Positions 1 to 3,586 of a stretch of DNA of 42,773 bases are shown one piece after another. How positions within the stretch are numbered: position 1 is the first letter of the stretch; every line of letters starts with the position of its first letter. The notes under the pieces are model-generated. The model searched no databases. It worked only from the letters and a program-made list of their open reading frames with translations, and had not been told where the DNA came from. The stretch is from Lachnospiraceae bacterium (GTDB lineage: Bacteria; Bacillota; Clostridia; Lachnospirales; Lachnospiraceae), in contig JAFLTF010000009.1 of assembly GCA_022510585.1 (NCBI GenBank), forward strand, positions 1 through 42,773. The letters are read 5' to 3'. The position numbers and the translations under genes are program-made.

Positions 1-341
1 TTCATACCTTTCCAAGCATATCAATAACAATCTGCCAAATCAAGGGCGTAAACGCTGCTAAAGCGGTAAACCTTTGATATTGATAAAGGGTAATCAATGT
101 ATGAATGAATAGGTGTGTTGGTTATACAATTTTGCTGTACTTTAGTATAAATATTTGGAATTATCTGTTATTTATTAAAAAAAGAATTGAGAACCGATAT
201 AAAAAAATATATAATAATGTCAAATGTAGTTAATATAAGGCAGTTAACATATATGAAGCCACTTTTACTAGCTGTTGAGGATAGAAAATCCACCAAAACA
301 CGTAGTCAATAAACTTCCCCGACGCAAGCAGCGGGATATAG

Positions 342-1712
342 GTGATTCAAATGAAAATATTTATTAGCCACACCGCTAAAGATAAAGATTCTTATATCGA
401 ACTTATTAATAGTTTGCGTGAACAGGGGCATACCGTTTTTAGTATTTATGATATTAAAATGGGAGAGAATTGGATTAATAAAATAAAAAATGCTTTAAAC
501 AAATCTGATATTTTAATTTTAATTATTACCGAGAATTATTTGGATTCATCATGGGCACGAACTGAGATAAGTTCTGCAATATTTGATACAAATATTAGAA
601 TACTTCCTGTTGTTGTCGGAGATTTGTTCCTACCTGACTATTTAAGAGGATTTGTATATAGAAAAGTTAAAACCAAAGAAGAAATTACTGCTACAGTGTT
701 ATGTGACATTGCGCGGTTAGATAATGTTGATGATAACAATACACTTTTTAAAAAAAGAGCGGTCACTCCCGGTGAAGAAGATAATATTGAAGAAAAAATA
801 GAAATATTAAAGGAAGCGTTAATTGACAATCAACTAACTTTAGTATGTGGTGCAGGCGTATCAAGGGATTCAGCTATACCTACCTGGAATGAACTATTAG
901 TAAATATTCTTAATGATGTCTATTTAAGCGATCAAAATTTGAACGCGGACAGTAAAGTAACAGCCGAAACTTTACTTTCACTTATGCCCCAGTCAAATTT
1001 GATTTTAGGAAAGTATTTAAAAATAATATTAAAAGACGATTTTGATAGAATCGTGCAAAAGCATCTTTATTCAAATTATAATCAAGAACGTGAATTTGAA
1101 CAATCAAATATTGTACAAGGTCATGAAGAAATAAACTACGCTTTAGAAACAAGTATGATGAAAGCTATTGTTGAGCTTTCTCGTCCTAAAAGAAGAGGAA
1201 ATCGATTAGAATCAATAATTACTTTTAATTTTGATGATTTAATAGAATGCGCTTTGTTAAAGCATCATATTGAGCATTGTTCAATATGGAAAGAAGGTCA
1301 GATATATGGAATAAATGCTTTGCCCATTTTTCATGTACATGGGTTTTTACCAAATCTAAAAGTTGTGGATACTCCTAATTTGGTATTTAGTGAGGAAGCA
1401 TATCATTCCCAATTTATTGATCCATACAGTTGGGCAAATTTGGTTCAATTAAACACATTCTCTACAAATGTATGCTTATTTGTGGGGCTTAGTTTGTCTG
1501 ACCCTAATTTAAGGAGATTGTTAGATATTTCATGGAGGAGAAATCAGCGATGTAAGCATTATATAATTATGAAAAAAATACCTCAAAAGAATAGAACGAG
1601 TGAAATCGTGACTATGCTTTTTGAGCAGGATGCAAATTCACTAGGACTAAATGTAATATGGTGCAATGATTATTCGGAAATCCCGAATGTTTTATTTAGC
1701 ATAGCCAAATAG
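342..1712 (+). CDS. TIR domain - SIR2_2-like domain fusion protein (putative NADase, candidate anti-phage defence)
   Basis: 456 aa ORF (GTG 342; ATG 351 also possible, SD-like 'ATAGG' upstream). N-term 'MKIFISHTAKDKDSYIELINSLREQGHTVF...ILIITENYLDSSWARTEISSAI' is TIR-like with W-x3-E catalytic Glu (E75, nt 564-566). C-term 'LTLVCGAGVSRDSAIPTWNELL', 'ITFNFDDL', 'FHVHG', 'CLFVGLSLSDPNLRRLL' is SIR2_2-like. Confidence 0.88.
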   Translation: MIQMKIFISHTAKDKDSYIELINSLREQGHTVFSIYDIKMGENWINKIKNALNKSDILILIITENYLDSSWARTEISSAIFDTNIRILPVVVGDLFLPDYLRGFVYRKVKTKEEITATVLCDIARLDNVDDNNTLFKKRAVTPGEEDNIEEKIEILKEALIDNQLTLVCGAGVSRDSAIPTWNELLVNILNDVYLSDQNLNADSKVTAETLLSLMPQSNLILGKYLKIILKDDFDRIVQKHLYSNYNQEREFEQSNIVQGHEEINYALETSMMKAIVELSRPKRRGNRLESIITFNFDDLIECALLKHHIEHCSIWKEGQIYGINALPIFHVHGFLPNLKVVDTPNLVFSEEAYHSQFIDPYSWANLVQLNTFSTNVCLFVGLSLSDPNLRRLLDISWRRNQRCKHYIIMKKIPQKNRTSEIVTMLFEQDANSLGLNVIWCNDYSEIPNVLFSIAK

Positions 1713-1759
1713 AGTCTGTTATATTTTATAAATAAAATTTAGAATAAGAGGGAAATAAA

Positions 1760-2359
1760 ATGTCAAACGAAGTATTTAATATATTTGCCGCTGTTGGAAT
1801 TGGACTTACTTTCTTAGCATCAATATCAGCAGTAATTGTTTCTATAATATCAATGCGATATTCAAGTAAAGTAGCAGAAAGATCAGGATATTTGAGTACA
1901 ATTACTGCGAGCCGTGATAAATGGTCAAATTTATTGAGGGAAAGTGCTTCGTTATATTTTACTCAGATTGCAAGAATATGTAGTGAGCAAGAGGATAATC
2001 TGACGGAGATTTATAATGATTTGACACATTATCATTTTGCAATAGAGCTACTGTTATTTAAGCAAGATGTTGAAATTCATAATAATATGAGCATAGTTCG
2101 GAATAAAGCTTTTGAGATTGTTGACCAGAGCAATATAATAAATCAACAATACAAGAAAATGGAAGGGTCTCTCAGTATCACTAAAGCAGATATAGAAAAC
2201 CAAGACATAGTTGTAAAAGCACGACAAAAAATGTATGACTTGAGGTGCTCAATTTTGAATGAATATCAAGGAAAAATTTTTGATGAAATAAGAATTTTAC
2301 TTGAATGTGAATGGAGAAAGCAACAATATGAGGCAACTGATATGTGGAAAGAAAAATAA
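1760..2359 (+). CDS. Small N-terminally membrane-anchored, helical protein; probable partner of the TIR-SIR2 protein
   Basis: 199 aa; one strong hydrophobic segment 'IFAAVGIGLTFLASISAVIVSIISM' then charged helical region 'RYSSKVAERSGYLSTITASRDKWSNLLRESASLYF'. SD 'AAGAGGG' before ATG; 47 nt after the TIR-SIR2 stop, same strand. Confidence 0.75.
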   Translation: MSNEVFNIFAAVGIGLTFLASISAVIVSIISMRYSSKVAERSGYLSTITASRDKWSNLLRESASLYFTQIARICSEQEDNLTEIYNDLTHYHFAIELLLFKQDVEIHNNMSIVRNKAFEIVDQSNIINQQYKKMEGSLSITKADIENQDIVVKARQKMYDLRCSILNEYQGKIFDEIRILLECEWRKQQYEATDMWKEK

Positions 2360-2531
2360 TTATTTTCAATATTTATACAGCAATTTCAATCATCTTTGCA
2401 TTCCTTATAGGCCATAGTTTTTATACATAACCAAGAAATTTAAGCTTATAAACTAAAGAGGTGATATTAACTACCTCGTTTGACATAATTTTTCATCTCT
2501 TTCTTGCATATAAAATAGACATTCACTCTGG

Positions 2532-2580: not shown

Positions 2581-3138
2581 TTAGTTACATTTACTACAAT
2601 CTTCCCGTTTTGCCTCACCGAATCTCTGGAAATGCACAATCTCTCTGGCACGCAGGAATTTGATCGGTTCGCATACTTCCTGATCATGCACCAGACGCAA
2701 GATGTTATCATAGGTGGTGCGGGCTTTCTGTTCAGCCGCCATATCCTCCGTCAAATCAGTGATAATATCGCCTGTGGACTGGAACTGAGTTGCAGTAAAC
2801 GGAACGCCGCCGGCTGCTTGTGGCCAGATGCCGACAGTGTGGTCTACATAGTAGTTGGCAAATCCTGATTTTTCGATTTCTTCCATGGACAGATCTTTTG
2901 TCAACTGGTGAACGATCGTTGCCACCATTTCCAGATGGGCGAGTTCTTCGGTTCCGATATCGGTCAAAACAGCGGCAACTTCTCTATAAGGACATGCATA
3001 TCTTTGGGACAGATAACGCATGGATGCACCCATTTCACCGTCGGGGCCGCCATACTGGCTGATGATCGCCTGTGCCAAAGCAGCATTAGGAGCGGTAATG
3101 TTTACAGGAAACTCTAATCTTTTCTCATAATTCCACAT
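2581..3138 (-). CDS. cotJC: Spore coat protein CotJC (manganese catalase-like)
   Basis: 'MWNYEKRLEFPVNITAPNAALAQAIISQYGGPDGEMGASMRYLSQRYACPY...GTEELAHLEMVATIVHQL' is characteristic CotJC; start chosen at MWNYEKRL (TAATG overlap with cotJB stop). Confidence 0.93.
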   Translation of the reverse strand: MWNYEKRLEFPVNITAPNAALAQAIISQYGGPDGEMGASMRYLSQRYACPYREVAAVLTDIGTEELAHLEMVATIVHQLTKDLSMEEIEKSGFANYYVDHTVGIWPQAAGGVPFTATQFQSTGDIITDLTEDMAAEQKARTTYDNILRLVHDQEVCEPIKFLRAREIVHFQRFGEAKREDCSKCN

Positions 3139-3413
3139 TAATAACAGCCTCCTTCCCAGGGCATAGGTGATGTTGCCCAAGTCCACTCATTACAGTCTGA
3201 TGCGTCAGCGGTGCTGACAGTAAGCGGACCATATTTAGACGCATATTCGCGCATTGCCTGATTTTTCATATGCACATAGTGCCTCAGATAATCAATGGCT
3301 TCTGTGTCATCCGGATGGGTATCCAGATAAAGATTCATCTCTACAATAACGAATCCCATTAAATCAATGTTGTGGAGCAGTTTAGCCTGCTCAGACTGAT
3401 AATTTCTGCTCAT
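3138..3413 (-). CDS. cotJB: Spore coat protein CotJB
   Basis: 'LLHNIDLMGFVIVEMNLYLDTHPDDTEAIDYLRHYVHMKNQAMREYASKYGPLT' CotJB family; between cotJA and cotJC. Confidence 0.9.
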   Translation of the reverse strand: MSRNYQSEQAKLLHNIDLMGFVIVEMNLYLDTHPDDTEAIDYLRHYVHMKNQAMREYASKYGPLTVSTADASDCNEWTWATSPMPWEGGCY

Positions 3414-3586
3414 TGACAGCATCTCCTTCCTTCAAACGGTTTATTTAATTCGGGGAAGATGGTCCCGTTTAATAGCGCTTCATCCAAGTCTTCATAAATA
3501 TGGGTCAAACGCTGCCAGGGTACATATGCCATGGCAACCGGGAATCTGTCAAAATCGTCGTTAAAGTGATAGTTTTTCATTTTCAT
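3410..3586 (-). CDS. cotJA: Spore coat associated protein CotJA (58 aa, absent from the supplied ORF list)
   Basis: Minus-strand reading gives MKMKNYHFNDDFDRFPVAMAYVPWQRLTHIYEDLDEALLNGTIFPELNKPFEGRRCCQ*; 'PxAMAYVPWQ...Y....AL..GTIFPEL.KPF' is typical CotJA. ATGA overlap with cotJB. Confidence 0.9.
   Translation of the reverse strand: MKMKNYHFNDDFDRFPVAMAYVPWQRLTHIYEDLDEALLNGTIFPELNKPFEGRRCCQ

Follow-up and report, generated by a model that had tools for sequence, protein, structure and literature searches.

Of the NAD-directed immune domains, TIR and SIR2 are the best known, and the locus considered here raises the question of what a protein carrying both of them, followed by a small membrane protein, might do in its host. 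The window (by which we refer to the whole stretch of DNA analyzed, 42,773 nt from a Lachnospiraceae bacterium) is an entire contig of an 80%-complete, 2.5-Mb genome; the fusion gene lies approximately 350 nt from the contig end, and its left neighborhood is off the contig. The features of interest are the following.

101..2400, + strand: low-GC cassette with both genes (left edge at approximately 101, right edge at approximately 2360–2400)
351..1712, + strand: TIR-SIR2 fusion gene, 453 aa (GTG at 342 is an alternative start)
357..674, + strand: TIR domain, residues 3–108 (Pfam TIR_2, 1.5e-20; PDB profile matches)
792..1709, + strand: ThsA-type SIR2 domain, approximately residues 148–453 (Pfam SIR2_2, 6.8e-15; PADLOC ThsA; PDB)
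1760..2359, + strand: accessory protein, 199 aa, N-terminal transmembrane (TM) helix and helical bundle, no family match

Architecture of the fusion, its partner, and the cassette

An open reading frame is present in the window at 342–1712 (+). Within it, we prefer the ATG at 351 to the GTG at 342 as the start codon, because a Shine–Dalgarno sequence (AGGTGA) lies directly 5′ of the ATG and overlaps the GTG, and because relatives start with an equivalent MKIF, as the window protein does when read from the ATG. That this chain joins a TIR to a SIR2 domain, as the original prediction held, is confirmed by the TIR_2 and SIR2_2 matches, both of which exceed the Pfam cut-offs and are thus not due to chance (the latter spans residues 288–416), and by the retention of the SIR2 Asn and His. 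A DUF4062 match (0.00019) fell under the Pfam cut-off and was set aside.

Counting from the ATG, the Trp of the TIR half is W68 and its catalytic-type Glu is E72 (W71 and E75 from the GTG, a shift of 3). Profile searches of the PDB match this half to BtTir (7uxr), TcpB, AbTIR, Cat1, and SpbK, and E72 aligns with the Glu of BtTir and TcpB. The SIR2 half contains GAGxS at residues 167–171, the Asn of FNFDD (N293), and the second His of HVHG (H330), the last two of which align with N112 and H152 of ThsA when a profile of the SIR2 subfamily is compared with 6lhx. Run against the PDB, the subfamily profile matches ThsA (7uxt, 8wc0, and 6lhx; 6e-17), KomC, DSR2, and human FAM118B; the best PADLOC match of the SIR2 half is likewise ThsA (4.9e-17, covering only residues 105–275 of 478). 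The chain ends where the SIR2 domain ends, at the point where the SLOG domain of ThsA begins. Searches with Pfam, PADLOC, and NCBIfam found no SLOG, macro, STAND, APAZ/pAgo, or HerA signature in the fusion or its partner, in agreement with the earlier reading of the locus as free of SLOG, STAND, APAZ, and HerA components. AF2 modeled the fusion poorly (pLDDT 49, with 7 close sequences), so that no quaternary arrangement can be argued from the result, and Foldseek searches with this model gave weak matches to TIR alone (E 0.003 or worse).

The small TM protein expected 47 nt past the fusion stop codon is also in place. It has one strong hydrophobic helix at approximately residues 8–30 (hydropathy peak 4–36) followed by a soluble helical bundle, and its AF2 model consists of helices with a mean pLDDT of 73. 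It has no match in Pfam, PADLOC, or NCBIfam, a sequence search of the PDB came back empty, and Foldseek returned no significant match to its fold (best E 0.2).

Together, the two genes make up an AT-rich cassette that is foreign to its gut Lachnospiraceae-type host. GC content in the window is 0.30–0.32 until approximately position 2400 (30% for the gene pair) and 0.36–0.50 thereafter, with 0.43 at the jump. Homology to one relative, L002, whose chromosomal setting differs, begins at position 101, and homology to another, L040, stops at 2363, 4 nt beyond the partner stop codon. The genes to the right of the cassette are housekeeping or spore-coat-like, and the visible window is no defense island. 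Directly to the right (2581–3586, − strand) are a Mn-catalase-family protein and two small genes, an arrangement like that of the cotJ spore-coat operon.

Recurrence in mobile elements, prophages, and a wider SIR2 subfamily

The TIR-SIR2 fusion is a real recurrent family, with ten distinct loci besides the window, mobile elements and prophages among them. Seven loci were recovered from 85,462 genomes scanned (best-segment identity 61%–95%), six of which are distinct, L004 and L005 being identical across the 6 kb compared; to these are added a diverged member from a family sample (L029, with 27% identity in the TIR and 49% in the SIR2 half) and three prophage members (L080–L082) found with a wider SIR2 profile, A3. 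A further family-sample match (G348) is the same as the L008 match and was counted once. The TIR parts of the prophage fusions match that of the window with E values of 2e-10 to 1e-9; Pfam TIR scores 4e-5 in L080 (under the curated cut-off), a weak 0.13 in L082, and gives no match in L081. Run against viral contigs, close-family alignments A1 and A2 gave no matches, and only A3 reached the prophage members; phage and plasmid searches yielded no phage record with the fusion and no plasmid covering 80% of it. A pair of adjacent TIR and SIR2 genes on an Agrobacterium plasmid, considered as a split fusion, looks by size and layout (a SIR2 protein of approximately 480 aa with flanking TIR genes) like ordinary Thoeris.

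Fusions are located in Clostridia chromosomes, in cargo slots of integrative elements, and in the three prophages. In L004, L005, and L008, the fusion occupies one cargo slot of an element of the integrative conjugative type, flanked by DUF6664 on one side and DUF3991/Toprim genes on the other; the idea that this slot is a defense hotspot was not upheld, as other elements carry mixed, unrelated cargo there. The prophage fusions lie close behind a P2-type CI repressor, and a defense hotspot between cI and int has been described in P2-related phages (Rousset et al., PMC9122126). The L003 contig, which was binned to a Methanobrevibacter MAG, has both fusion and partner, together with fragments resembling those of the Clostridia element slot; it probably comes from a Clostridia element and was mis-binned. 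In the L007 fusion (L007:1057–2763), a long low-complexity insert of EEGNLEEGN repeats separates TIR from SIR2, and Ile takes the place of the TIR Trp.

On sequence comparison, the SIR2 half falls in a wider subfamily that combines a constant C-terminal SIR2 domain with swappable N termini (TIR, Mrr_N, nuclease-like, or coil). An Mrr_N domain (8.7e-16) precedes the SIR2 domain in L030; nuclease-like N termini, recognized by eye from D..E-x-K patterns and with no Pfam match, occur in L035, L083, L089, L092, and L095; and short, unassigned N termini are found in the SIR2 proteins of P2-like prophages (L084–L091, except L089, and L094). The SIR2 genes with N termini of approximately 100 aa in the P2-like prophages (L084–L091 and E. 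coli NZ_AP027532.1, L100) lie directly upstream of the gene for baseplate protein V in most of the cases read. The L035 protein is also present in three E. coli chromosomes, and in the one inspected, it shares an island with genes for HsdR and CbtA/YeeU and with an antirestriction gene. Annotated merely as “SIR2 family protein,” this nuclease-like–SIR2 protein (WP_032434307.1; L035:5434–6948 and E. coli NZ_CP148746.1, L101) looks like a candidate undescribed single-gene system in an enterobacterial defense island. Among the readable proteins of a Clostridia-class SIR2_2 sample, all but that of the window have the SIR2 nucleotide motif near the N terminus, at position 7–51; in the window protein, it is at 169, behind the TIR.

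Comparison with known defense systems

Type I Thoeris, which consists of a SIR2-SLOG protein (ThsA) and a TIR protein (ThsB), shares with the fusion a TIR domain and a SIR2 domain of the ThsA type, the fusion having equivalents of N112 and H152, whereas here there is one chain, with the TIR first and no SLOG. We looked both for a separate ThsB-like TIR gene, finding none among the window ORFs read beside the fusion (the left side of the locus being off the contig), and for a ThsA effector with SLOG (or TM-macro), which is likewise absent. The fusion is not Thoeris, although its mode of action may in part be similar. PDB profile matches show the SIR2_2-type domain to be common to the fusion, DSR1/DSR2, KomC (Kongming), and FAM118B; DSR1 and DSR2, however, have an N-terminal SIR2 domain and a long C-terminal sensor region, whereas the fusion has 453 aa and a C-terminal SIR2 domain. 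The TIR NADase defense proteins SpbK, Cat1, and AbTIR have the same TIR fold and catalytic-type Glu but lack SIR2, whereas in the fusion a second putative NADase is attached to the TIR. The defining components of the SIR2 or TIR systems with APAZ-pAgo, of SIR2-HerA, and of STAND/AVAST were not found in the fusion or its partner. TIR-NLR-type STAND proteins (PMC9122126) do have interchangeable TIR, SIR2, or nuclease modules, an idea common to the fusion subfamily. In STAND systems, however, the effectors swap N-terminally and the sensor is constant; in the subfamily, it is SIR2 that is constant and the TIR or nuclease-like part that is swapped, with no STAND NTPase.

No PADLOC defense type matches the fusion over its full length, the best matches covering single domains, so that the description of the locus as a candidate uncatalogued module has held up. 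Neither “TIR-SIR2” nor “SIR2-TIR” was found as a term in the literature searched, a coverage that excludes many subscription papers, and in one review (PMC10952713) the two domains are listed as parts of different proteins. Provisionally, neither the fusion nor the C-terminal SIR2 subfamily appears to have been described in the papers searched, in PADLOC 2023, or in NCBIfam 2026.

Unequal evolution of the two halves and competing readings

The two halves differ in how they evolve. In the closest pair, the window and L002, dN is 0.057 and dS 0.051 for the TIR half (dN/dS approximately 1.1), as against 0.008 and 0.124 for the SIR2 half (approximately 0.06), a contrast with a Fisher p of 1.1e-4 that is built on few substitutions. 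TIR is also faster than SIR2 between the window and L003 and between the window and L008; the very close pair L006/L008 has no such contrast. All nine aligned fusions have the SIR2 Asn and His without variation, and the catalytic Glu of the TIR is kept in eight, with Lys instead in the prophage member L081. The related elements of L004/L005 and L008 have unrelated downstream genes and fusion proteins that are 94% identical in SIR2 and 57% in TIR; synonymous divergence is approximately twofold higher in the TIR half, which makes an exchange of that half possible.

The fast-evolving TIR, together with the loss of its Glu in L081, points to the TIR as a sensor or assembly part and to SIR2 as a constant executioner. 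We give about an even chance to the locus being a mobile abortive-infection cassette, in which the TIR would sense or assemble, SIR2 would execute by NAD loss, and the TM partner would be accessory; the defense role, trigger, assembly, NAD loss, and partner role are what we infer. This reading draws on the nearest solved SIR2 relatives, which include the NADases and antiphage sirtuins ThsA, KomC, and DSR2 besides human FAM118B; on the recurrence of the fusion, its element slots, its CI-adjacent prophage position, and the subfamily member in an E. coli island; and on the invariant SIR2 site. Counting against it, the neighbors in the window form no defense island, and the Glu kept in most aligned fusions suggests that TIR chemistry may matter; the TIR half perhaps has its own chemistry in most members.

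That same Glu, along with ThsA being the nearest PADLOC match of the SIR2 half, would suit a self-contained Thoeris-like protein, whose TIR would make a cADPR-type nucleotide from NAD+ on infection and whose SIR2 would respond in the same chain. We regard this as unlikely: ThsA senses its cADPR signal through SLOG (PMC11204291), which is not detected here, the fusion ending where SLOG would start; the non-TIR N termini of sister SIR2 proteins indicate that the subfamily does not require a TIR signal; and L081 lacks the Glu. The signal-plus-effector option of the original prediction is weakened by the lack of a signal reader. In a variant that we consider somewhat less likely still, the SIR2 half, on the same chain or on a neighbor in an assembly, would itself read the TIR product made on infection; if true, this would be a one-protein equivalent of Thoeris in which a sirtuin is activated by a novel route.

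The other option first proposed, a doubly NAD-consuming executioner in which TIR and SIR2 both hydrolyze NAD+ as redundancy against phage inhibitors, survives insofar as the window protein has both sets of active-site residues, E72 included. The fast evolution of the TIR beside a strongly conserved SIR2 and the Lys of L081 weaken it, and it would have no separate sensor unless this were the partner, which most fusion loci lack; it, too, is improbable.

The distribution of the partner bears on whether the TM protein might instead keep the fusion inactive, in the manner of a toxin–antitoxin pair. It recurs in three places besides the window: It follows the fusion in L003 and L004/L005, at the spacing of 45–47 nt also seen in the window, and in L040 an intact partner ORF adjoins a truncated, frame-broken C-terminal SIR2 remnant (L040:1500–2460), the two together being a decayed cassette. 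Its orthologs are 70%–79% identical and under purifying selection (dN/dS approximately 0.09–0.16). It is missing from at least six fusion loci, namely L006, L007, L008, L029, L080, and L081: A different gene, weakly matching HEPN_Swt1, holds its position in L006 (truncated) and L008, another gene does so in L029, and nothing resembling it follows the fusion in L007, L080, and L081; L002 and L082 are cut off too soon for a judgment. Being recurrent yet absent or replaced so often, the partner is best seen as accessory, and the pairing recurs at constant spacing without being obligatory. The constant spacing and the partner still under purifying selection beside the L040 remnant favor an effector and its restrainer, but the partnerless loci exclude an obligatory antitoxin of this type for the family, and we hold such a pair to be unlikely. 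Least probable of all is a housekeeping or element-maintenance role in which SIR2 would ADP-ribosylate or deacylate a cell target with the TIR as scaffold, since, although ADP-ribosyltransferases and deacylases are known among sirtuins (PMC9503650) and the element slot also carries non-defense genes, the nearest solved relatives include ThsA, KomC, and DSR2, the distribution is patchy, mobile, and low-GC, and a CI-adjacent prophage position and a sister in a defense island complete the picture.

Under the abortive-infection reading, the fusion protein would be inactive in a healthy cell. A phage component, or a change caused by the phage, would act on the fast-evolving TIR half and lead to self-assembly; assembly would turn on the SIR2 site (N293/H330), and the resulting NAD+ hydrolysis would stop the cell ahead of phage release. 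The membrane-anchored partner, where present, may tune or restrain triggering at the membrane.

The described systems that we found keep TIR and SIR2 apart in different proteins, and the fusion unites them. In its arrangement, the C-terminal SIR2 subfamily mirrors the STAND systems. Occurring across Clostridia elements and enterobacterial-type prophages, the fusion offers a direct way of asking which of its halves is the sensor and which the killer, and whether a sirtuin can be switched by a TIR when no SLOG reader is present.
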